Part shown: positions 10,448 to 52,619 of the stretch, piece after piece
Position numbering within the stretch: the stretch's first letter is position 1
How the letters are laid out: every line of letters begins with the position of its first letter
From: Candidatus Nitrosotenuis uzonensis
GTDB lineage: Archaea > Thermoproteota > Nitrososphaeria > Nitrososphaerales > Nitrosopumilaceae
Assembly (NCBI RefSeq): GCF_000723185.1
Contig: NZ_CBTY010000008.1
Location: 234,677 to 298,676, forward strand
Direction: 5' to 3'
Length of the DNA stretch: 64,000 nucleotides
The notes under the pieces: model-generated
The model's database searches: none
What the model was told of the DNA's origin: nothing
The model's input: only the letters and a program-made list of their open reading frames with translations
Translations under genes and position numbers: made by a program

Positions 10448-11137
10448 TCAGAAAATACCAAAAACGGTTGCCAGTATGTCGCCAAAAACTAGTTGCACAA
10501 CAAATCCTGCGGCAATAAATATCATGTATGGTATGCCCGGTGTGATCCACGTATCCTTTTTTTCGCAAAATTGGGTCGATTCCGCATGCTGAATGGACAG
10601 CTTTAGTTTTTTCTTTTTACCTTGCATTCTTTCAATAGAGAATCCGAATTTTGGGTTTGCAGCCCTGTATCCTATGAACATTGCAAATATCTTTCTTGCC
10701 TTGGTTTCTTCAAATCCGTCAAAGATATTGCGTTTTGAGGCAAGAAGTATGGTGTTTCTAACTGCATTAACTAACATTGGTACTATGGATAATAACACGG
10801 CATTTGTCAGTGTGGTAAATGGTGTAACGGTTCCTTCGAAAACTGTCATACCTGGCGCAATGACTGCAAGCGCGATTAGAGCAAAGGCGTCTGCACCACC
10901 AAAAAGGCCCACTCTCCATATTATGAGCGCAATAGGTGCAACGATCAGAGCAATTCCGACTTTGAACAGGTCTTCTGTAATGTCTACTGAAAATATCAAC
11001 ATGATTGCTCCGGCAGCTCCGAAGATTATCCATACAATATCGCTTATCTCACGTTTTTTAATATCTGATGATGTCGCAATGCCTAGCATCACAAGCGCAA
11101 TCGTAACTCTGATAAAATCAATAGACTGGTCCAGCAT
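10448..11137 (-). CDS. Archaeal prepilin peptidase (A24 aspartic protease, PibD/FlaK type)
   Basis: 229 aa, six or so hydrophobic segments. The two catalytic aspartates are D25 in GIATSSDIKKREISD and D83 in the GGAD motif, the GxGD hallmark of type IV prepilin peptidases. It cleaves the positively charged leader of class III signal peptides in the membrane. Candidate substrates in this window are the prepilin-like proteins at 43.1, 45.4, 49.3 and 49.7 kb. A TTAAATAAATTC box lies about 24 bases upstream of the ATG. Confidence 0.9.
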   Translation of the reverse strand: MLDQSIDFIRVTIALVMLGIATSSDIKKREISDIVWIIFGAAGAIMLIFSVDITEDLFKVGIALIVAPIALIIWRVGLFGGADAFALIALAVIAPGMTVFEGTVTPFTTLTNAVLLSIVPMLVNAVRNTILLASKRNIFDGFEETKARKIFAMFIGYRAANPKFGFSIERMQGKKKKLKLSIQHAESTQFCEKKDTWITPGIPYMIFIAAGFVVQLVFGDILATVFGIF

Positions 11138-40776: not shown

Positions 40777-43125
40777 TTAAAATATGTCCTCATCGTCGAA
40801 AATATCTTCATCTTCGGTTTTACTTGATTTTTTGCCTCGTCTTTTGATTACTACTAGTGCACCTATTCCAGCAGAGGGTCCTATTATTGTAAACAACAAG
40901 GTATAATCATCCTGATAAATTGGTCTTGTTTCCACATCATCATCTGCTACAAATGTTGCAGTTGGTGTTGTATATGGCAAATTCTCCCATCCTACAAGCT
41001 TTTTCTTGTAGATGAACATGTCATTCAGAGTGGCTGGTGCGTTTATGGTTACGTTTTCTCCTTCGCGATATTGGCCAGTACCTTCACCATTCTCAACAGT
41101 TATGGTATATGTGAATACTATGGGATTTTCAACCGGGGTTTGAACTATATCTTGCGAGATAGACGATACGACAGGCTGTTCCCCTTTAACAGTTATTGTC
41201 GTTTTTACAGGAACAGTATTCTCATCATAAAATATCAATCCGTGACTTCCAGTTTCGTTTATGTAAACCATCTCCCCTATACTTGACATTTGTGCGTTTG
41301 ATGAAATACGAACCATTGATTTTTTTATCTGGTTATTGTTAAGATCTGCCACATGTGTGATTAATGGAAAGGGCTCATTCGGGAAAACCGAGAATGGATG
41401 AGATGCGATCACCGTCTTTCTCATTGGATTGTATACTTCTAAAATCTCAGTTGCGGTAAACGCGTTTGAAGACACATGAATTTCTGGTTTGGTTTCTGCA
41501 AGATCTGTTATTTTGCCGCTCACTGTAAGTACTGCATCACTGTCACGGCTCACTTTGTGTAGAAATGATGGTTTTGAGGTAATGCTAACTAGGCTTCCTT
41601 CCTTTGCCAAGGTAGGATCTGTTACGATTTTATCATGTGCCGAAGTTATCAGAAACAAATCCTGTTCCACCCCAAAAATTACTGGTAGGGGGATAATTGT
41701 GATCCTCGGATCCTTGATGTATTTTTGCATTGGTAGCGGCTCAATCTCGAAACTTTCAGTATTTTTTATTTCTACAAATATCTTGCCAGTCCCAAAATCT
41801 TGAACGTTTGTCACTACTATTCCATAATTCTGGTCATCTGCAATAGTCCCACTCAGTGAGCTTGGAGTGAATTTATCATTGGTAAATACAATAAAATCAT
41901 CTTTAGCCCTATCAATTACTGGTCCTCCAATAGAGTGCCTTGATACAATTATCTCCATTTTATCATACGGGGGATCTGGGTATGCAACCACTTCAGTCTT
42001 TGTCGGGCGCTCAGAGTTAGACGTCTCGGTAAAAACCGTGATGATTTGGGTTTCTTTGATTGTTTCATCATCCTTGCTTGGTGCTACGCTTTCTGCCAAG
42101 CCACTGATTCTTATTGTACCAGAGTCAAAACTCGTATATGCTGTGATCTTTCCATAATGAGTTCCTTTCTTTATGATGGCCTCTCTTTTGGAATCTTCCT
42201 TTAATTGTGCATCCGTCTGAGTTATTACTTTTTTTGCATCTTCATCAATAGTTCTCCTCTCTGATGCTGTCGTTTCAGATAACACTATTGCTCCCTTCAT
42301 CGCAGGATTGAATGACATTTTATCTCCCCTATCCACACTAAGTGTGATTTTTACGTCGTGTGGTGGAATGTATGGTCTTCCGCCTCTTTCAAGCCAAAAA
42401 TAAACCTCTGCGCTGGAGCTTGTTGGTACGCGTTGAGGAGCGACGGCAATTTTCAGTTCGATTTCATCTGAGCTCGAAATTGTTATTGTTTCTGTATCAG
42501 GATCAAGATTTGGTGCAGTTGAAGTAATTGTGCCTTCGCCTTTTACTTCAAAAGAGAATTTTGCATAGTGTTTTCCTGGCTCTATTGTAATTGTATTTTT
42601 GTGTAATGTGACATCGCCTCTGCTTGTCAGAATAACTTCAATTGGTTCTTTGGCAACTACTGGATTTTCAAATGAATTCAACAAAAAGACATATCCTATT
42701 TGTACATTCTGTCGTACCAGTACGTTTACCAATGTGGAGGGAAGCTTCAGATCAAGTTCGTTTGGCGTATCTGCAGATTTTTTAACAGTGACCTGCCTTT
42801 CCAATAATAGGTCGTCACGTATGGCATAGATATTGGCGCTTCCTATCTCTTTTGTTTCAAATTCTACTATTCCATGATGCTTTCCTTGAGGGATGGTTAC
42901 TGTGTGTTTGCTTATCTTGATTATCTCTGCGTTGTTTGTTGTGATGTCAAACATCAAATCTTTATCGGAATTTGTTTCCAAAACTATTATTCCATAGTAT
43001 TTTTCTTTTGGCAATACGTCTGTTGGCGTCCACAATGTGGCCTGAATGTCATTACTTGCGGCATCTACATAGTTGAATGTAAATGCAAGAATTAATATTG
43101 TGAACAATATTGAAATTATTTTCAT
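40777..43125 (-). CDS. Large secreted repeat protein with C-terminal anchor, about 782 aa
   Basis: Start ATG 43125, which overlaps the upstream pilin stop as TAATG; residues 1-22 (MKIISILFTILILAFTF..) form a signal peptide. The ectodomain is beta-rich with repeated turns such as KEKYYGIIVLET, GKHHGIVEFETK, GKHYAKFSFEVK, GTHYGKITAYT and GSHGLIFYDE, roughly one per Ig-like unit. The C-terminus has a hydrophobic helix (LLFTIIGPSAGIGALVVI), a basic stop and the acidic EDEDIFDDEDIF. Probably an adhesin-like or pilus-associated surface protein; no known family. Confidence 0.7.
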   Translation of the reverse strand: MKIISILFTILILAFTFNYVDAASNDIQATLWTPTDVLPKEKYYGIIVLETNSDKDLMFDITTNNAEIIKISKHTVTIPQGKHHGIVEFETKEIGSANIYAIRDDLLLERQVTVKKSADTPNELDLKLPSTLVNVLVRQNVQIGYVFLLNSFENPVVAKEPIEVILTSRGDVTLHKNTITIEPGKHYAKFSFEVKGEGTITSTAPNLDPDTETITISSSDEIELKIAVAPQRVPTSSSAEVYFWLERGGRPYIPPHDVKITLSVDRGDKMSFNPAMKGAIVLSETTASERRTIDEDAKKVITQTDAQLKEDSKREAIIKKGTHYGKITAYTSFDSGTIRISGLAESVAPSKDDETIKETQIITVFTETSNSERPTKTEVVAYPDPPYDKMEIIVSRHSIGGPVIDRAKDDFIVFTNDKFTPSSLSGTIADDQNYGIVVTNVQDFGTGKIFVEIKNTESFEIEPLPMQKYIKDPRITIIPLPVIFGVEQDLFLITSAHDKIVTDPTLAKEGSLVSITSKPSFLHKVSRDSDAVLTVSGKITDLAETKPEIHVSSNAFTATEILEVYNPMRKTVIASHPFSVFPNEPFPLITHVADLNNNQIKKSMVRISSNAQMSSIGEMVYINETGSHGLIFYDENTVPVKTTITVKGEQPVVSSISQDIVQTPVENPIVFTYTITVENGEGTGQYREGENVTINAPATLNDMFIYKKKLVGWENLPYTTPTATFVADDDVETRPIYQDDYTLLFTIIGPSAGIGALVVIKRRGKKSSKTEDEDIFDDEDIF

Positions 43126-43598
43126 TAGCAGACCCTCCAGCTTATCGGAATCGGTACTATACACTGCTTTCCGTTTTCAGTTACGAATAAAATTTTTACA
43201 TCATTAACTGTGGCATTCGGTATATCAAATACAATGCTCGTTGTATGCCCGGATGGTATTATGTTCTGTTTATTTGGTATTGTGGTTTCGTTAAGATATC
43301 GCTGAATCGTGATGGTGCCTGCACTATCGAACGCAACATATGAGTCAAGAACAGTTTGCCTGCTCCACATATTTGTCATTTCAACTGTATATGGCAGTCC
43401 AGAACTTGCGGTAAAGTTAAGCTGTTCATTGTTTCTGTTCATTTGTATGTTGTTTACTTCGATTGATGCCTCTAAGAATCTAGATTGAATTGCATTTATG
43501 TCAAGAAATGCAATTGATGCAATTCCGAACACGATTATCAGCGCAACAAGTGAAATCAGTCCGCCAACACCACGATGATTTGATTTTAAAATTGCCAT
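43125..43598 (-). CDS. Prepilin-like protein, 157 aa
   Basis: The N-terminus MAILKSNHRGVGGLISLVALIIVFG has a basic leader, then a G before a hydrophobic helix, the class III (type IV pilin/archaellin) signal pattern. The rest is a small beta-rich domain ending WRVC. Directly downstream of the TadC-like gene and coupled to the secreted repeat protein by TAATG, so likely a pilin of the same apparatus. Confidence 0.65.
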   Translation of the reverse strand: MAILKSNHRGVGGLISLVALIIVFGIASIAFLDINAIQSRFLEASIEVNNIQMNRNNEQLNFTASSGLPYTVEMTNMWSRQTVLDSYVAFDSAGTITIQRYLNETTIPNKQNIIPSGHTTSIVFDIPNATVNDVKILFVTENGKQCIVPIPISWRVC

Positions 43599-43606
43599 AA
43601 TTCCAC

Positions 43607-45310
43607 CTAGAACGGCAATCCCTCAAACAGTGTGTCGAAATTGAATTCCTTGAGTGTGGAATATGCATCCATTGCAAGTATTGACAAGATAGCAATTGCA
43701 CCTATTGCAACTACTCGCCATGTATTGTAGAAGGTAAAATCAACTGCCTTTGTTATCACAAACGCGCTTAGAATGCTGCTAGTCACAATTAGCGTCTTTA
43801 TCATAGATAGGAATTCTGGAGTTACTGTAACTATGTTTACAAAGTTGCTTCCAAGGCCGAACTGGCTATCTGCCAGTGCTGCATCAGACACTGCAAACTT
43901 GAATGTGGAATCACTTATACCTCCCAGCATATCTTGAATTATTCCGGCAGTAAATGCCATTATTACCGGGGATGCAAACACTAACATAGTTAACATTGAA
44001 ACAGATGATTTTCCTTCCCTTATTGCCTGCTTTGTGTTTGTGATAAATCTGGTGATCGTCTCAAGAATTTTTGGGGTCCCACCTCCAAATTCTGCAATGT
44101 ATGATAAAATGAAAAAAGATATTTTTGTCATCCATGGTCTGAACGTTACTGCCATCGTACTTGCAGTTGGCGTGGTCCCATAATCTATCAAAACTGCCAC
44201 TTCGCGGAGCTTTTTCATGAATGTTTGATTGTAATAGCCTTCTTTTGAGAGCTTGATTATTGCAAGCAGTATGTCATAGCCTATTTTCTTATATTCTGTT
44301 ATATCTCGCAGAAATTGTGGCAGTGCTTGTTCTAGCTTGGCAATTTCCTTGTCTTGTCTTCCTACTATGATGGCGCTGATGGCAGATGGAACCATCATGG
44401 CAGCAGCAAGCGTTATCCACAGTTCTTGTCCTAGAACGTGCAATCCGATTCCTGTTGCAAAACCAACTCCAAAAAGAACTGCTAGTTGGTTTTGTGTCAG
44501 GCCTATATTGTTAAAGCTTGCAGGCTGCATTGAGCTTATGACTACCCCTATCATCATGGAAAATACGGGCAATCCGACCACTGCAAGGAGTGTTATTTGC
44601 TCAATTGAGCTTCCAGGAAGTACGAACGAGATCACCATGATCAAGATGGGTAGGATTATGAGAAGCGTCACTAGTACTTCAACTACTGTGCCAACGTTGT
44701 TCGAGTATGCCTGATATTTTTCTTTGAGAAGAATCAGAAATTCCTCTGATCTGTTCTCAAGATATAGTGTTAGATCACCGCCGCTTCTCCATATACTGGT
44801 GTATCCAAGAAGCAAATTTGCAAACAGCTGACTTTTATGAGTTCTTCCAAGCTCTTCTAATGCCTCCATCTGAGACATGCCAAAAAATTCTACATTCCTT
44901 CTAAGTAACATACCCTCTTTGTCCATTGCTGGAAAGAGGCTTATTCGCTTGAAAATCTGTATGCATTCGTAAAGATTTATTCCTACATTTTGCATGACTG
45001 CTGCAAATATGACAAACGCTGGAAGTTCTGACTCGACTTTTTTTCTTCTATCTTGACTTAGCTGTGTTTGTTGCAGCTTTGGGAATAAAAATAGGACAAT
45101 CCAGATAATGTTGACTGTTACGAATATTGGTGAATAGATTAACGTCAGTGCAATACTGGTAGGCAGTATTATGACTGCTGAGGCGATCATAAAAATTCGA
45201 ATCTGTTTTAAGAGTCGGACAGTGTGAAGAGGCTTTCCTGCAAACATTACATCGTTATTGATATCATTAATCATATCGTTGAGTGTATTTTCAAGAGTAA
45301 TCTGGGACAT
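43607..45310 (-). CDS. TadC/FlaJ-type integral membrane platform protein of a type IV pilus
   Basis: 567 aa with two T2SSF-like halves, each ending in hydrophobic helices. Seen: SELPAFVIFAAVMQNVGINLYE and later ALPQFLRDITEYKKIGYDILLAI, the cytoplasmic domains that contact the ATPase, and LVTLLIILPILIMVISFVLPG. This is the membrane core of archaeal pili and archaella. It heads an operon with a pilin and the large surface protein; the matching ATPase is 2.2 kb away on the same strand. Confidence 0.85.
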   Translation of the reverse strand: MSQITLENTLNDMINDINNDVMFAGKPLHTVRLLKQIRIFMIASAVIILPTSIALTLIYSPIFVTVNIIWIVLFLFPKLQQTQLSQDRRKKVESELPAFVIFAAVMQNVGINLYECIQIFKRISLFPAMDKEGMLLRRNVEFFGMSQMEALEELGRTHKSQLFANLLLGYTSIWRSGGDLTLYLENRSEEFLILLKEKYQAYSNNVGTVVEVLVTLLIILPILIMVISFVLPGSSIEQITLLAVVGLPVFSMMIGVVISSMQPASFNNIGLTQNQLAVLFGVGFATGIGLHVLGQELWITLAAAMMVPSAISAIIVGRQDKEIAKLEQALPQFLRDITEYKKIGYDILLAIIKLSKEGYYNQTFMKKLREVAVLIDYGTTPTASTMAVTFRPWMTKISFFILSYIAEFGGGTPKILETITRFITNTKQAIREGKSSVSMLTMLVFASPVIMAFTAGIIQDMLGGISDSTFKFAVSDAALADSQFGLGSNFVNIVTVTPEFLSMIKTLIVTSSILSAFVITKAVDFTFYNTWRVVAIGAIAILSILAMDAYSTLKEFNFDTLFEGLPF

Positions 45311-45411
45311 TACGTTGCGTAGGACTGAGTTCTGAATTCTAGTTCACCTAAACATTGAATCTTGATTCTGCTTATAAGAGAAATTCAGACGAAGTATTCA
45401 AGGACGAAAAT

Positions 45412-46365
45412 ATGAACACAAAATGGGATACCAAAATTAAGAAAAGACTGGGAGTAAGTCCAATACTTGCCACGGTAGTGCTTTTAGGCATTACGGTGGT
45501 CGGCGGAGGGCTGACTTTTGCAGTATTTTCTCAAGGTCTAAACACATCGACTTCACAAACACTGGTAGCACTTGAAAATGCACAGGCAGTCAAAGGTACA
45601 GGACATGCGGATCTGACGGCAACCATAAAGAACACTGGCTCAAAGCCACTCACAAAAATAGAGATGACTGTATCAAAAACAGATCTTAGTGAACCGATTC
45701 TTTATGAAGCATTGCATGAAAATGTACTCGGCTGTGATGCTGATTGTAATCTCTCTACAGCCAAACCACTGGCCAGTCCAAACAACAATGACAATCCGTT
45801 AAGAGCACAATGGATTGCACATCTTGACTTGTCTGGAGGAACAAAAGACGTTGCAGACAAAGGCGAGGGCATCTCAGTTGGAAGAAAGTTTGAGCTGACT
45901 ACTGGCGATCTATCAATGAGAACTATCAAAGTACCGAACGGCACATCAGTTCAAAAGTTGATGGTCAACTTTGGTACTGAGAGAGCCAATAGTAACATCC
46001 CCTCAACAGCATTTGCAACATGTACCATTGTTGACAATACCAGCTGGGTAGACTGTCAAGCCTTGTTTGATCAACTAGATCCAAGCGGTGCCAGATACAC
46101 AAATATCATGTGCAAAGGATCAGGACCTGCAGCAACCCCAACATCAGAGGTTGAATGCAAGGCCTTCTCACACAGAAAGCTGTCTGCGCCATTAGGACCA
46201 GGTCAATCAATCCAGATCTATGCAGATGCATTCACCAAAGCAGTTCCTGGTCTCAACAATCAGGTATTGAACTCAGGTGACGGACTTGTGACCAACGTGG
46301 TTGCTACTGCTGATGATGGCTCATCAGTCAGAGTTCAAACAGTAATAAAGGTAACTGGAATTTAG
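45412..46365 (+). CDS. Archaellin/pilin-like protein, 317 aa
   Basis: Start taken at ATG 45412: a TGCTTATAAGAG element lies about 33-42 bases before it, and the extra 19 residues of a longer frame carry no signal. KKRLGVSPILATVVLLGITVVGGGL is the archaeal prepilin signature with a cleavage site after G/A before the hydrophobic helix, and the conserved TxxLxxxQ-type first block follows. A large C-terminal domain with several cysteines (CDADC, CTIVDN) makes it bigger than most pilins, perhaps the major or tip subunit. Confidence 0.75.
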   Translation: MNTKWDTKIKKRLGVSPILATVVLLGITVVGGGLTFAVFSQGLNTSTSQTLVALENAQAVKGTGHADLTATIKNTGSKPLTKIEMTVSKTDLSEPILYEALHENVLGCDADCNLSTAKPLASPNNNDNPLRAQWIAHLDLSGGTKDVADKGEGISVGRKFELTTGDLSMRTIKVPNGTSVQKLMVNFGTERANSNIPSTAFATCTIVDNTSWVDCQALFDQLDPSGARYTNIMCKGSGPAATPTSEVECKAFSHRKLSAPLGPGQSIQIYADAFTKAVPGLNNQVLNSGDGLVTNVVATADDGSSVRVQTVIKVTGI

Positions 46366-46415
46366 ACAAAACCCACTCTTTTTTCTTTTTTATACTAATT
46401 GATTTGGAATTAATT

Positions 46416-47573
46416 ATGATAGTACAATTAATTCTAGTTTTTTTAATTCCAACGCTGATAGGTAATGCCTTCGCAGCACCTCTTGTTGAGTACTTGAATG
46501 ATATAACGGATCTACTATACGACAACGAAAATATCTATTTTTTTGAAATTGATAGAAGCATTCAATCACAAACATGGATAGCAGATACAAAAATAATTGA
46601 ATTAAATGATCATACAAAACATCCTCTTTCTAGTGATTTATTCATATATCCTACGGAGCTTTCTTCAAATGGAGATTATCTTTATTTTGCCACCCTTGCA
46701 GACGAATGTGTTGGCTTTATCGCGTGTGATTATCAGAATATAATCCGCGTCTCAAAAATAGATGGAATTTCATCTACATTGGCAACTGGTCTAAAATCTG
46801 CAATTCACATCCATATGGAGCCAGATAGTCTCTATGTTTCAGAGTCAAACGGAAACATCTGGGAGATAAACTTTGATGGTACAAAACGTCTCATACACAA
46901 AACAGACAACATAATACTTGATGTGGCATATCTTGACGGCAGTGTCTTTTGGATTGAGGAAGTAAATGAGAATCTGCATAAAATCATGGCAAAAAGCGAT
47001 CAGAGTATATCGCATGTGTCATTTGATTCACCACACACCGTCTATGACACACCAAGTCTTCCTTATTCACTAGATACAAGTAATGGTCGACTTAGGTGGA
47101 ATGAGATCTATGTGAATTCTACTGAAAATAACGTTAGTGACTATACTGCCATAATGGAATTTGATGGTAAAACCGTAAGGAAGATTTATGAATTTAAAAA
47201 TACTGCAAACATAGCTAGGTTTGATTCTGTAGCACATTACAAGCCGCATTTGATTGCAGGAGAGTATATCTTTCTGGTTAACAACACCCAAGTCCCATCG
47301 TCATTACACATGATTCATCTCTATAATGGTTCTAACACGTTGCTTGATCCAAGTATAACAAATGCGCCCATTTTTCTCAGAGCCGAATCCGATAAGATAT
47401 TTCTTGTCGGAAAAACAGGCAAAGAATTTAGCATAGATCAGTATTCACTGCCTGTAGTTGTACCAGAGTTTCCAGCAAGCATTCTCATATTAGTCGGCGG
47501 GATTATTCTTGTGATTGTCAATAGATTTACAAGACTAGGCCCGTCGAGTCCTAAGTCTTTCAACATCAGATAA
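46416..47573 (+). CDS. Secreted beta-propeller-like protein with PEF anchor, 385 aa
   Basis: ATG 46416 with TTTTTTATACTAAT about 26 bases upstream; a TTG at 46404 in frame is less likely. Signal peptide (1-20), then repeats of short strands around tryptophan and tyrosine (DNIILDVAYLDGSVFWIEE, ..RLRWNEIYV) like a propeller, and a C-terminal VVPEFPASILILVGGIILVIV anchor. Ends inside the ATPase gene (39-base convergent overlap). Probably a surface receptor or adhesin near the pilus. Confidence 0.65.
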   Translation: MIVQLILVFLIPTLIGNAFAAPLVEYLNDITDLLYDNENIYFFEIDRSIQSQTWIADTKIIELNDHTKHPLSSDLFIYPTELSSNGDYLYFATLADECVGFIACDYQNIIRVSKIDGISSTLATGLKSAIHIHMEPDSLYVSESNGNIWEINFDGTKRLIHKTDNIILDVAYLDGSVFWIEEVNENLHKIMAKSDQSISHVSFDSPHTVYDTPSLPYSLDTSNGRLRWNEIYVNSTENNVSDYTAIMEFDGKTVRKIYEFKNTANIARFDSVAHYKPHLIAGEYIFLVNNTQVPSSLHMIHLYNGSNTLLDPSITNAPIFLRAESDKIFLVGKTGKEFSIDQYSLPVVVPEFPASILILVGGIILVIVNRFTRLGPSSPKSFNIR

Positions 47574-49205
47574 AGATTTTGAATTAAGAACCGTTGTGTA
47601 TTTTTCAATCGGATCATAGTAAAACTTGGCAAGCTCGCGCGTCACTTCGTTGAATCGTAAAATTCCAGAGTTTACCATCTTTGAGAGAAAACACATTCTT
47701 GTGACTAGCTGACTTGCTATCTCATCCCGATTCCAACCATTCATGACTCCAATTTCTTTTAGTCTGATGGATCTATCTATTACCTCGTTTATATCTGAAG
47801 GAACAAACTGCGATGATGACGCGTCCCATTCTATTATCTTGTTAAGTGATATGCTGCTCTGTCTTGGTATGACCTCCGTTATCTCTGTAATCCTTCTTGA
47901 TGTTTTGCCGTCAGGATTTACAATTCTTTTTTGGTGCAACAACGCCGAAATAAGCATCTGGCCTCCCACATGCACATTCATCGGCGGGCTTTCCATCCTG
48001 ACAAATGCCGACGCAGCATCAAAAGCATGAAAGCTTGTAAGACCCCCGTGTCCAGTAGACACTGCCTGTATTAGTGAGGATATTTCTTTTCCTCTGACCT
48101 CGCCTACCACGATATAATCTGGCCTTGATCTGAGCGAGAGTTTTATGAGATCATCCATTGTTACCTCGTATTTGTCCTCAAAAATGCTAGAGCTTTTTCT
48201 TGTGATGAGTCTCTGCCAGTGAATGTGACCTATTTTCATCTCTGGCGTGTCCTCAATTGTGGTTATCTTCATCTGAGGATTTATCAGAGAGCTCAGAGCG
48301 CCTATTGTCGTAGTCTTGCCTGCAGCAGTAGAACCGATTACAAGTAAGAACGCTTTTGACTCTAAGAGCAGCCACACATATGATGCTATCAGCGTATTGA
48401 GCGTACCAAGCTCAATTAACTTTGTTATGGTATATGGTTCTTCACTGAATTTTCTTATTGTAAAGTTCGGACCTGGTAGCGATACTTCTTTGCCAAATGT
48501 GGCAGCAATCCTACTGCCGTCCTTTGTCATTGTGTCAATATACGGAACTGCAGCAGTCATACTCTTGCCAGTTCTTTGTACAAGTTTTTGCACAAAAGAA
48601 TTTGCCATCTCAAATGAGTTGAACCAAATGTTGGTATCAAGTATACCGTATTCTCCATATTCCTTGTGTGCCACACCTACTGGTTTGTCAAAACTCTCTT
48701 CTACAATATCTTCTATGTTCTGATCTTTCATCAGTACGTCGATTATGCCGTATCCAAAAGAGTCCCGTATGGCATAATACTGCAACTTGTCAAGTATCTT
48801 GGTCGTAGATGTGAGCAGACCAAGCTCTTTGCTTATCTCAATTATTTTTTTTCTGATAAAACCTCCAATATCACTTTCGTTTGCGGGAAGATCATATGAT
48901 AATGAGATAAAAAGATAATTCATTATTTTAGAATAGATTGCTTTCCCCTTTTCACCTATAGGTGGCTCCGATACAAGATAATGCATTTTGCCTGCAGAAT
49001 CCTTGGCAATGTATACTATACACACTCCTACTCCATATTGCGAGACAACAGAGTATGACTTTAAATCAGGAACAGATATGCTCTGGAGCTCAAATTTTAG
49101 GTTAGAGACTTTTTTTGGTTTGGAAGAGAACATTTTGCCAATCTTGCCAAGGATTACCATTTTTGCGGATTTTCCACTGGGCCGCATACTTGTATCGCTT
49201 TGCAT
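47535..49205 (-). CDS. Type II/IV secretion ATPase (TadA/FlaI/GspE family)
   Basis: 556 aa. Walker A GSTAAGKTTTIGALSSLI (291-298 core), Asp box in TTIEDTPEMKI, Walker B-like SRPDYIVVGEVRG and the His box GHGGLTSFHA. N-terminal domain of about 200 residues carries the platform-binding part. It powers assembly of the pilus formed by the prepilins in this cluster. Divergent pilin genes start at 49285, sharing an 80-base promoter region. Confidence 0.9.
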   Translation of the reverse strand: MQSDTSMRPSGKSAKMVILGKIGKMFSSKPKKVSNLKFELQSISVPDLKSYSVVSQYGVGVCIVYIAKDSAGKMHYLVSEPPIGEKGKAIYSKIMNYLFISLSYDLPANESDIGGFIRKKIIEISKELGLLTSTTKILDKLQYYAIRDSFGYGIIDVLMKDQNIEDIVEESFDKPVGVAHKEYGEYGILDTNIWFNSFEMANSFVQKLVQRTGKSMTAAVPYIDTMTKDGSRIAATFGKEVSLPGPNFTIRKFSEEPYTITKLIELGTLNTLIASYVWLLLESKAFLLVIGSTAAGKTTTIGALSSLINPQMKITTIEDTPEMKIGHIHWQRLITRKSSSIFEDKYEVTMDDLIKLSLRSRPDYIVVGEVRGKEISSLIQAVSTGHGGLTSFHAFDAASAFVRMESPPMNVHVGGQMLISALLHQKRIVNPDGKTSRRITEITEVIPRQSSISLNKIIEWDASSSQFVPSDINEVIDRSIRLKEIGVMNGWNRDEIASQLVTRMCFLSKMVNSGILRFNEVTRELAKFYYDPIEKYTTVLNSKSLSDVERLRTRRA

Positions 49206-49284
49206 TCTGTCCTTTCACCTCTCCTGTATTTCCATACATTATGTGCTCGTATTTTCTTTATATAGAGAATTTCAAGTATTGGGT

Positions 49285-49737
49285 ATGAGAAGGGGAATCA
49301 CTCCAATACTAAGTGTTGTAATCTTGATTGGAATAGCACTTGTGGGAAGTGTGCTTCTAAACGGCCTATCAAAAGACTTTGCAGGCAAAACGTTTGCACA
49401 GATAGAGTACAAGGTCTCAAATGTAAATCTGAAAAAAGATTCAGCGGGCTCTTGTTATTTCTCGCTTACGCTTCATAACACCGGAACTCTTCCCATCACC
49501 ATGACTACGATAAATGCCACATTTACCAACAACACAAAGTGGAATCCGCCAGAGCTTGTGGATGCTACCACCAAGGAACCCGGACACACATATGAGAATA
49601 CCGTAATGTTTGACGGACATACGTGTGGAAACGTTACAGTCGGGAACACGTACGTGGTCAGAATCCTGGCAAATTCAGCTGATTCATCATTTTCAACATC
49701 AATACCAGTAAAGGCATCAAGGGTGGAAAGTGTATGA
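49285..49737 (+). CDS. Prepilin-like protein, 150 aa
   Basis: Start at ATG 49285, preceded by TTTATATAGAG about 26 bases upstream; a longer frame to 48988 is rejected because it runs through the ATPase gene. MRRGITPILSVVILIGIALVG is a textbook class III signal, then a beta-rich domain with three N-glycosylation-like NxT sites (NATFTN, NVTVGN). Overlaps the next pilin by four bases. Confidence 0.75.
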   Translation: MRRGITPILSVVILIGIALVGSVLLNGLSKDFAGKTFAQIEYKVSNVNLKKDSAGSCYFSLTLHNTGTLPITMTTINATFTNNTKWNPPELVDATTKEPGHTYENTVMFDGHTCGNVTVGNTYVVRILANSADSSFSTSIPVKASRVESV

Positions 49738-50213
49738 TGCGAAGAGGCATTAGTGAGCTGATCAGCGTAGTGCTTGTAATAGTTATTGTAATATCTGGTA
49801 TGGGGTTTTACGTGATTGTATCACAACAAAGAATTCTAGGCGATGCACTCAGCGTTAAAGAGGCAATAGTTCTATCCGAGCATCGCATCTCAGAGCTGAT
49901 CGAACAAGTAAACATGCACAGAGTCAGAAATACCGTGGATTATTCTGTAACGCATTTGTTCAATTACGGAACAAAAGACATTATGATATCTACAATATTT
50001 GTAAATGGTACGGAGAAACTGGCTCCGCCTGCAAGATGGTACGTAAGGGATTTAACTGGAACGATAAACTATTCTTCGACGATTCCGCAGAATATGCTGG
50101 TCGAACTTGTCATAAATTTTACCGAGAGTACAAATTCCCCAGAGCAGATTACCAACATAATAATCCATACTGAATCAAAAAAATTTATAGAAATATTAAA
50201 CAAGACAAAATAG
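49734..50213 (+). CDS. Prepilin-like protein, 159 aa
   Basis: Begins ATGATG, overlapping the stop of the preceding pilin by four bases. MMRRGISELISVVLVIVIVISG is again a class III signal with Glu at position 5 of the mature part, a feature of type IV pilins. The C-terminal domain has NxT/NxS sequons. Ends ten bases before the palindromic terminator shared with the opposite operon. Confidence 0.75.
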   Translation: MMRRGISELISVVLVIVIVISGMGFYVIVSQQRILGDALSVKEAIVLSEHRISELIEQVNMHRVRNTVDYSVTHLFNYGTKDIMISTIFVNGTEKLAPPARWYVRDLTGTINYSSTIPQNMLVELVINFTESTNSPEQITNIIIHTESKKFIEILNKTK

Positions 50214-50222
50214 CCCGAATTT

Positions 50223-50250
50223 CATCTAAACATTATGTTATGTTTAGATG
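50223..50250. terminator. Bidirectional stem-loop between the pilin operon and the wHTH gene
   Basis: CATCTAAACAT (50223-50233), TATGTT loop, ATGTTTAGATG (50240-50250): perfect 11-bp arms. It contains the TAA stop of the minus-strand wHTH gene (50244-50246) and lies ten bases after the last plus-strand pilin, where two transcripts meet. Confidence 0.6.
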
Positions 50251-50852
50251 GGTTTGAAATCAGCTTTCATTGCCTCTATCTCAGTATGTGTGACATTCAG
50301 CATTTGGTCTATTTCTGATTTGTTTATTGAATCATCTGCCTTGATTTTGCATATGGTTCTTCCAAGGTCCGTGATGGTGTAGTATTTTGGCCTAAACCCC
50401 TTACCCATTGAATTGACATGCTTTATTCTGGAATGGTATCCATACACAAGATTTTTTTCCTCAAGTCGTTCCAGAATAGCATATGTGTTAGGTATGGGCT
50501 TGTGAAAAAAATTTGCAAGGAATTGTAATGATGCCTTGTTTATCTTTGATAATATGTAAAGCGTTGCCTTGGCATCCGAGCCCATCTTAAAGTTCTCATC
50601 AATTTGCTGCAAATTCAAAAGAGTTTCCGATTCTATGTTGATTTCGGGCAGGCTGTATTTCTCAACTGCGGCAAGATCAAGATTAAAGTTCTTGTCAACC
50701 ACATCTTTTATTCTCAAGGACTGGAGAATCTTTTTGACGCGGATTTTTTTCCCGGTGACAGAAGTAAACAGATACTGAATCTCGGATTCATTCAGGCGTG
50801 GGTATTTTTGGAGTAATGCGATTATGACAAGCTCATTATTGCCAATTCTCAT
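50244..50852 (-). CDS. Protein with two winged-helix-like domains, 202 aa
   Basis: N-terminal half: LVIIALLQKYPRLNESEIQYLF and ILQSLRIKDVVDKNF; C-terminal half: ATLYILSKINKASLQFLANFFH and NTYAILERLEEKNLVYGY, each a helix-turn-helix with a possible wing, the second resembling PadR-type domains. Its ATG overlaps the stop of the ParB-like gene by four bases (50849-50852). Third member of the TFB-ParB-wHTH operon; likely a DNA-binding partner. Confidence 0.65.
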   Translation of the reverse strand: MRIGNNELVIIALLQKYPRLNESEIQYLFTSVTGKKIRVKKILQSLRIKDVVDKNFNLDLAAVEKYSLPEINIESETLLNLQQIDENFKMGSDAKATLYILSKINKASLQFLANFFHKPIPNTYAILERLEEKNLVYGYHSRIKHVNSMGKGFRPKYYTITDLGRTICKIKADDSINKSEIDQMLNVTHTEIEAMKADFKPI

Positions 50853-51799
50853 CTGTCTTCTCTCTTTGAGACTATCAGCGTGAGCTCAAACTCATCGTCG
50901 AATTTTTCAATCATATTCTTGAGCTCCTTTCTAGTATAGTTTGCAGAAGTGTATACTTTTGATGTTCTGTTGACATTGAACTGTCGCTTTACGATCACAT
51001 TATTCTGCTCTACGTATTCATACACTTCGCCTGCTTTTGTTATGTCGTATTTAGAACCGCATTTGCAGACAAAAGGAATTTCGTCAACTCTGCTACCGCC
51101 GGTCTTTTTCTTGTATGTCTTTTTTTCTTTCTGATTTGTTATCTTTTCAATCTCATTTATTATTTCATATATGCTTGGAATCGATATCAGTGACTCGTCA
51201 GACGGGCCGTACATTATGTCCTGAAATATCCAATCAACCACTTCGACCTGTTTATCAGGTGAGAGCCTTGTCAGCCCTGCAAGGTGTGACGGAGTTATCT
51301 GGCTTAAAAGAAACTGGTATTTTCTTTTTGCCACCTTGATGATTTTCTGTATTACCAGTTTTGTATCGTCGTGAAGATCTTTTATTTTCAGCAGCGACGT
51401 TATGTAATCCTCGCTTATTCCATAAGCGTCGGCCACTTTTCTTATATCGCCAAGGAGTGTCATGTCCTCATAAACCATATCTGATAGTGGTAACGGGTTA
51501 GAGTAGCCTTCCCGATTCAGCTGAAATGACATTATGCGCAATTGATGATGATCTGTTACGGTCTCTGTAATCTTGCATGTTATTTTCTTCAGTCCTGCCT
51601 CTGCGGCGGCTGCCACTCTGGAGTGGCCGTCAACTATGTATAACTTATTTCCAATCTGTGCTACAATAGGAGGACTTAGTGCATCGTCTCCACGCTCTTT
51701 AACTGCGTAAACCATGTTATGATAATCAGCATCAGATAACACTCGAAACCTCCATGGGTTTTCATTTAGTCTGCCAATCTGAATTTGCTCTATTTTCAT
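50849..51799 (-). CDS. ParB/Srx-like nuclease-domain protein with C-terminal zinc site, 316 aa
   Basis: Start ATG 51799, overlapping the TFB-like stop by four bases. Residues 1-100 form the ParB/sulfiredoxin domain: LNENPWRFR, PPIVAQIGNKLYIVDGHSR (CTP-binding GxxR, G58-R61) and LNREGYSNPLPLSDM, aligned to the ENxQR...PxEEA block. A helix-turn-helix follows (VADAYGISEDYITSLLKI), then a linker, and a C-terminal CKCG (245-248). No ParA gene or parS sites are nearby, so it is probably a DNA-binding regulator rather than a segregation protein. Confidence 0.75.
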   Translation of the reverse strand: MKIEQIQIGRLNENPWRFRVLSDADYHNMVYAVKERGDDALSPPIVAQIGNKLYIVDGHSRVAAAAEAGLKKITCKITETVTDHHQLRIMSFQLNREGYSNPLPLSDMVYEDMTLLGDIRKVADAYGISEDYITSLLKIKDLHDDTKLVIQKIIKVAKRKYQFLLSQITPSHLAGLTRLSPDKQVEVVDWIFQDIMYGPSDESLISIPSIYEIINEIEKITNQKEKKTYKKKTGGSRVDEIPFVCKCGSKYDITKAGEVYEYVEQNNVIVKRQFNVNRTSKVYTSANYTRKELKNMIEKFDDEFELTLIVSKREDR

Positions 51800-52458
51800 T
51801 CTAAAATGCCACCTATTTTTGCTCTTATGACACTGCATGTGTTTTGCATTATGGCTTTTTTTGCAGCAAGACTTGGATCTGTGCCAGCAGTCACAATACT
51901 TTTCATAGCCCTCCACTTTATCTGCTCAAAGTACTTAGGGTCCGTCTCCCGAAGTACTATGTTCTGAATTTTAGCAAGGTATGCATGAAGATAATATTCT
52001 TTGTTTGGAGGCTCTAACCACAGATCAGGATCATCTGCTTTTTTGATAATTCTATTTAGCATCTTTAGCAGAGATTTTTCAGTATGTGGATTCCTCTTTG
52101 ACATTTTTCCTTCCACCGTGAGAAAAACATCTTCAAGAAGACGAGGTATCTTATGTATTCTACACGCATAAACAGTCGCAAACAATATCGCCTGTTTTTT
52201 TGTAATCTTTTTTTTCATTAGCCGTGTGGTTATCTGTATTATCGTCTGAGTAGCGTATGTTGGCAGGTTAAGGTTTTTTGCCACATATAGAATTATTCCT
52301 ATAATTCCGCTTTTACCAAAAAATCCGACAGTGTGGGATTTCCAATCATCCACGCTTTGAACAAGGGAATATCCAAGTACGATCCCACAGTCCCTGCACA
52401 CGGTCTCACCTTCGATTTCCGTTGGATGATGCAGACAGCACGCCTCTAAATAAGTCAC
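51796..52458 (-). CDS. Short divergent TFB (TFIIB-like) protein, 220 aa
   Basis: GTG start with TTTAATAG about 30 bases upstream. The zinc ribbon is CxxH...CxxC (C8, H11, C21, C24, ending in VCRDCGIVLG), the type seen in human TFIIB but with a shortened loop. Core cyclin-like helices follow (LPTYATQTIIQITTRLM, ILFATVYACRIHKIPR). Ordinary archaeal TFBs have about 300 aa with two full cyclin folds; here the second is reduced. Heads the three-gene operon. Confidence 0.75.
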   Translation of the reverse strand: MTYLEACCLHHPTEIEGETVCRDCGIVLGYSLVQSVDDWKSHTVGFFGKSGIIGIILYVAKNLNLPTYATQTIIQITTRLMKKKITKKQAILFATVYACRIHKIPRLLEDVFLTVEGKMSKRNPHTEKSLLKMLNRIIKKADDPDLWLEPPNKEYYLHAYLAKIQNIVLRETDPKYFEQIKWRAMKSIVTAGTDPSLAAKKAIMQNTCSVIRAKIGGILE

Positions 52459-52619
52459 AATTAGGCTAATCTAATGGTTTTTCTATTAAACTGTTAAATC
52501 GTTTTAGCATCATAATATCGGAAGAAATTCCAACTCTATGTTTTATGAAAACGTGATGTTAAAAATATATCTTTTATACCCAAGAAAACGAAAATAAGAA
52601 AAAAGATTGGAAAACCAGT

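Follow-up and report, generated by a model that had tools for sequence, protein, structure and literature searches.

How do archaea with many TFBs fire one particular set of promoters? Promoter choice in archaea draws on multiple TFBs, of which ammonia oxidisers carry 4-11 (PMC7554672), and the way in which TFB3-type factors find their promoters is poorly understood. We analysed a stretch of 64,000 nucleotides from Candidatus Nitrosotenuis uzonensis (hereafter the window) in which a TFB that lacks its DNA reader, a putative ParB-type switch and a helix-turn-helix (HTH) protein are encoded in one operon, with a small predicted regulon and a defined promoter element. The operon lies tail to tail with a type IV pilus (T4P) locus. 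We give a probability of roughly 0.55 to the reading that this trio is a dedicated transcription-control module of the adjoining T4P, and the operon probably switches the adjoining pilus surface genes on or off.

Results

A coupled three-gene operon beside a T4P locus

The trio occupies positions 52458-50244 of the minus strand. The first gene (51796-52458) encodes a truncated TFB-like protein of 220 aa with a Zn ribbon, no B-reader/linker, a first cyclin repeat and a shortened second one; the second (50849-51799) encodes a ParB-like protein of 316 aa with a ParB/Srx NTP-binding fold (GHSR), an HTH domain and a C-terminal part with an invariant CxCG; and the third (50244-50852) encodes a double winged-helix protein of 202 aa whose second half is PadR-like. 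On re-check, the original prediction, made from the letters of the window, proved correct in the coordinates, the strand and the two 4-base start/stop overlaps (51796-51799 and 50849-50852) that couple the three genes. As for the shared terminator that it proposed, a hairpin with 11-bp arms was found at 50223-50250, between and overlapping the convergent ends of the pilin 2 and winged-helix genes, and is a candidate only for that role.

The neighbouring locus encodes a T2SSE ATPase, T2SSF/TadC, four pilin-like proteins and a large secreted protein. On the minus strand lie the genes for the large secreted surface protein (40777-43164; adhesin-like by position), a pilin-like protein (43125-43598; HRGVGGLI signal), the membrane platform protein T2SSF/TadC (43607-45310) and the T2SSE secretion ATPase (47535-49205). 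The plus strand carries a large pilin-like protein (45412-46365; KKRLGVSPIL signal), a secreted protein with no assigned function (46404-47573), pilin 1 (49285-49737; RRGITPIL signal), which is leaderless with its start 27 nt after the TATA, and pilin 2 (49734-50213; RRGISE class III-like signal), which is convergent with the trio. An archaeal prepilin peptidase (A24) gene is located at 10448-11137 of the window, 30 kb from the T4P locus. On another contig of the source genome (C6:89367-92778), a second T4P-type ATPase gene adjoins one for a TraG/VirB4-like ATPase, with no ParB match nearby.

A search of 400 genomes of the order Nitrososphaerales recovered the trio together and in order in seven. 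The window's genus group accounts for three of these genomes and a second genus (g12) for another three, and the seventh belongs to a different family; the high-scoring TFB and ParB orthologues came from this identical set of seven genomes. The original prediction had suggested scoring whether the three genes are neighbours in related genomes, and in these seven they are, with constant order. Because the order is kept in the six other genomes at 33-54% identity, the arrangement is not due to chance. Neighbourhood comparison placed the TFB, ParB and winged-helix genes beside pilins and the ATPase in all seven trio genomes, where the same T4P locus adjoins in every case. The T4P ATPases of these genomes were also the seven best matches among the 400 genomes. 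The eighth-best belongs to genome G033, whose T4P locus is similar but has no trio beside it; that an orthologous T4P locus exists without it counts against dedicated control. In G033, the T4P locus itself ends with a similar prepilin peptidase gene.

A TFB without its DNA-reading parts

The TFB assignment of the original prediction holds by profile and by fold, the predicted model matching the TFIIB core (Z 12, 150 residues, rmsd 2.7; with two relatives retrieved, the alignments behind the structure models are shallow, at three rows each). The human-type CxxH...CxxC ribbon was read correctly in its second knuckle, CxxCG, which is invariant across the orthologues, but the first knuckle varies among CxxH, CxH and CxxC, and CxxH is thus only loosely kept. 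Both cyclin repeats are present in the model and the second is indeed reduced, with four helices instead of five. Set against the order's canonical TFBs, the ribbon matches up to canonical position 53 and the core picks up again at 129; positions 54-128 (B-reader and B-linker) are replaced by about 14 residues. The protein ends before the final C-terminal HTH helix, and its model alignment ends at residue ~280 of human TFIIB and 1277 of the P. woesei TFB. From the profile gap and the early C-terminal end, we therefore conclude that the B-reader, the B-linker and the BRE recognition helix are missing. The TFB3-type pattern is thus present: the Zn ribbon is kept, and the B-finger and the BRE HTH are absent.

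These losses, like the promoter palindromes described below, go beyond what had been noticed at first, and they tell against the simple view of an alternative TFB, as the protein is without the parts needed for initiating alone and for reading the BRE. The multiplicity of archaeal TFBs cited above would accord with an autonomous TFB that selects promoters alone, the ParB-like and winged-helix proteins being unrelated passengers. We regard this as very improbable given the missing B-reader/linker and BRE helix, and given that TFB and ParB are coupled and co-evolve: their distances correlate with r 0.96 (Mantel 0/2000; Spearman 0.67 among distant pairs).

The ParB-like and winged-helix proteins

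The predicted model of the ParB-like protein has a ParB/Noc/KorB fold over residues 1-230, with the NTP-binding fold followed by the HTH domain; pLDDT is about 70-93 up to residue 160, and the C-terminal third (residues 199-316) is of low confidence and poorly modelled. Its fold and HTH align with those of ParB, Noc and KorB, of which KorB is the closest over the full length. Neither GH[SA]R nor the C-terminal CxCG varies among the seven trio ParBs. The ParB/Srx domain, the HTH and the CxC originally described are all borne out.

The description of GHSR as CTP-type stands in one part: 36 of the 38 TFB-coupled ParBs retain the phosphate motif GxxR, and the Box III Asn column of the 38 is nearly invariant. 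The label CTP, however, is too specific. The canonical ParB P-motif is GxRR, and in its GH[SA]R form the motif is also similar to those of sulfiredoxin and free serine kinase, which have the same fold. Instead of the canonical CTP motifs GxRR (Box II) and EN (Box III), the core ParBs have GH[SA]R and [LM]N, which preserve the second Arg and the Asn but not the first Arg or the Box III Glu. Judged from these residues, CTP binding by the core ParB-like protein is possible and hydrolysis doubtful, and the departure from canonical CTPases (GHSR, no Glu) would count against an NTP-gated clamp. The ParB fold can bind CTP, ATP or GTP, and the nucleotide is not predictable from the sequence (PMC12704722).

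The third protein has two HTH parts, in line with the two winged-helix domains first proposed. The second is PadR-like; the PadR profile matches this half only, below the curated cut-off (20.5 bits vs 27), and the PDB profile gives an E of 2e-4.

Relatives in integrative-conjugative elements

We fetched the neighbourhoods of 108 ParB-like genes of the order; in 38 of them a TFB gene stands immediately upstream, in most cases with an overlap. In a quick ParB phylogeny, the TFB-coupling label needs two changes, and 64 uncoupled ParBs are split from all coupled ones by a branch with 99% SH-aLRT, one uncoupled row falling on the coupled side. One gain and one loss of coupling would fit this tree, a reading that is only indicative because the core ParB served as the search seed and some rows sit on long branches. 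L095, the uncoupled row, has no adjoining TFB, unlike every other ParB in the coupled part of the tree, and is a probable loss.

The original prediction had taken the TFB-ParB combination for one not known before; this was mistaken, as a TFIIB gene immediately upstream of ParB has been described in thaumarchaeal integrative-conjugative elements (ICEs) (Krupovic 2019, PMC6563490). The second-shell (ICE-type) TFB-ParB loci in our set carry VirB4/TraG, prepilin peptidase or actin-like genes, in agreement with that description. The trio might accordingly be the relic of an ICE, with ParB as a partition protein, the TFB as the element's own initiation factor and the T4P linkage inherited from a conjugation module. 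The gene content of these relatives, the single origin that the coupling on the ParB tree would fit and the standing of the TFB-ParB pair as a hallmark of thaumarchaeal ICEs (PMC6563490) all point this way. We nevertheless judge a relic unlikely. No ParA-like gene was seen on inspection by eye of the core trio neighbourhoods, no integrase or VirB4 was seen in the 64-kb window, and a VirB4/VirD4-type ATPase was not encountered near the trio. Two of the seven core genomes, G146 and G158, keep the trio without any match to TraG (a VirB4-type ATPase), and the conservation of the trio and its promoter boxes on the chromosome extends over more than one family. The earlier argument that chromosome segregation is unlikely without ParA is thus reasonable at this locus, but partition ancestry is possible because the ParB relatives are ICE-borne.

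Carriage by a virus or plasmid was rejected, as the TFB has no plasmid match and the ParB domain only three weak phage matches. At L064:1347-2198, L150:9872-10711 and L093:2090-2953, second-shell TFB-ParB-HTH operons lead into an MreB/ParM-like actin gene, in several with a ~94-aa partner, which suggests that these elements have a segregation or positioning system of the actin type. A divergent RHH-like gene of ~115-130 aa precedes the TFB in many second-shell loci (L093, L150, L157 and L064), and the two tested have no Pfam match. The third genes of these loci encode short proteins that are mostly homologous among themselves; a single gene 3 family over all loci was rejected, the core copy having no detectable homology to the second-shell copies.

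Promoter elements of the T4P locus and the operon

Both divergent T4P promoters in the seven genomes share a TATA-centred, more or less palindromic element, the T4P box, with the consensus nTTTnATTTTCCTTATAAGGAAAATTTT; it is clearest in loci L058-L060. In the window, both copies are on the plus strand: box A (45360-45387) lies between T2SSF/TadC and the pilin-like gene on the plus strand, and box B (49246-49273) between the ATPase and pilin 1. When the matrix was derived from the six genomes other than the window's, its top places in the 64-kb window were 45372 and 49258, with a gap to the next site. Matrices trained on one T4P promoter rank the other 1-43 among 38,000-128,000 positions, a cross-ranking that is partly due to the TATA itself, and with a matrix from box A only, box B does not come out near the top of the list for the window, nor does box A with one from box B only. 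In whole-genome scans that included these sites in the training set, no place in any trio genome scores higher than its two T4P promoters; the independent tests of the box are leave-one-genome-out and A-versus-B only. A third site, outside the training set, occurs at the next pilin gene in G010 and G008. The matrix scan found the box absent from the trio-less T4P locus of G033 and weak in other T4P loci. Promoter-selective control of the adjoining pilus genes, the testable idea of the original prediction, is supported by this common element and by the linkage in all seven genomes. Additional palindromic matches to the box were seen upstream of genes for secreted surface-like proteins in G146 and G256 (L276, site 3510; L277, site 3730), which are candidate further targets.

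The operon has a palindrome of its own, ATTAGGCTAATCTAAT (52460-52475), a candidate autoregulatory operator that closely precedes the TFB start codon. In six of the seven genomes, TTAG-N6-CTAA is found just upstream of the TFB start, and the exact form ATTAGGN4CCTAAT occurs once in the complete genome of G146, at the TFB start. A wider regulon for ATTAG-N6-CTAAT was rejected, its counts not exceeding those of a reversed-pattern control, and the same operator was not seen upstream of the second-shell TFBs. In L061 and L062 (G039 and G065), a TATA-centred palindrome like the T4P box, TTTTCTTATAGCAAAA, is present at the TFB promoter, about 22 nt upstream of the start.

The overlap of the box with the TATA would fit a repressor as well as an activator, and it bears on the main rival, silencing of the KorB-KorA kind. 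Here the ParB clamp would slide to the pilus promoters, the winged-helix protein would lock it there, and the TFB would act as a decoy that competes with the canonical TFB for RNA polymerase, leaving the pilus off by default. KorB, the closest full-length match of the ParB model, works with KorA as a clamp and an HTH lock that silence conjugative-plasmid genes (PMC11790492), in vitro, Sulfolobus TFB3 and TFB1 are competitors for RNA polymerase (PMC2246294), and, besides a box that covers the TATA, the operator at the TFB start would also suit silencing. We nonetheless think silencing rather unlikely, as a retained Zn ribbon and a TBP-facing cyclin repeat suit a co-activator better than a pure decoy, and as Sulfolobus TFB3 proved to be an activator of the ups pilus genes (PMC10470591). 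By analogy with TFB3, activation is favoured.

Discussion

If the trio is a dedicated control module of the T4P, its parts may work as follows. The ParB-like protein would be an NTP-gated DNA clamp which, with the winged-helix protein as its operator-binding partner, marks the pilus promoters, and the truncated TFB, its own BRE reader and B-reader gone, would be brought there by these partners. The operon partners thus probably supply the promoter recognition lost from the TFB. Once recruited, the TFB would use the Zn ribbon and the first cyclin repeat to act on TBP and RNA polymerase; its most likely role would be that of a TFB3-like co-activator working alongside a canonical TFB, and the palindrome upstream of its start may allow the module to regulate itself. 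A more specific version, which we put forward tentatively, is that the ParB clamp itself replaces the lost BRE reader: it would load at the T4P box and hand the TFB to TBP and RNA polymerase, with NTP binding switching promoter choice. If control of this kind holds, ParB-type switching reaches archaeal basal transcription, and a regulator can be named for the pili of ammonia oxidisers.

The closest parallel for the TFB is Sulfolobus TFB3, which retains the Zn ribbon and has lost the B-finger/reader and the BRE-binding HTH (PMC2246294), and for which a DNA-bound recruiter, of unknown identity in that proposal, has been proposed to be needed at weak-BRE promoters (PMC5817253). The two share the same losses, the kept ribbon and T4P genes as the target, a predicted one for the trio; the likeness is one of architecture. 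They differ in that Sulfolobus TFB3 is a DNA-damage-induced factor and has no ParB partner described in the available text of these reports (PMC2246294, PMC10470591 and PMC5817253). TFIIB homologues (arCOG01981 and arCOG05559) have also been reported in archaeal T4P loci, where they are presumed regulators (Makarova et al. 2016, PMC4858521); in contrast to the trio TFB, arCOG01981 is described with two cyclin domains, and ParB has no occurrence in that text.

With the ICE pair of Krupovic 2019, the trio shares gene order and coupling, and the core ParB falls in the TFB-coupled part of the tree, whereas the core clade is chromosomal and sits at a stand-alone T4P locus. The available text of that work (PMC6563490) makes no mention of the third HTH gene or the TFB truncations. 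As a ParB-fold clamp in transcription regulation, the ParB-like protein would resemble KorB-KorA of plasmid RK2 (PMC11790492), in which KorA is the HTH partner, and VirB of Shigella (PMC10770331). Both are bacterial systems with no basal transcription factor, and Shigella VirB has the GxRR motif (PMC10770331) that is lost in the core ParB. The TFB-ParB pair in ICEs (PMC6563490) and TFIIB homologues in T4P loci (PMC4858521) were already known, and what is new relative to the searchable literature is the TFB3-like truncation, the three-gene form, the clade at a stand-alone T4P locus and the promoter elements.
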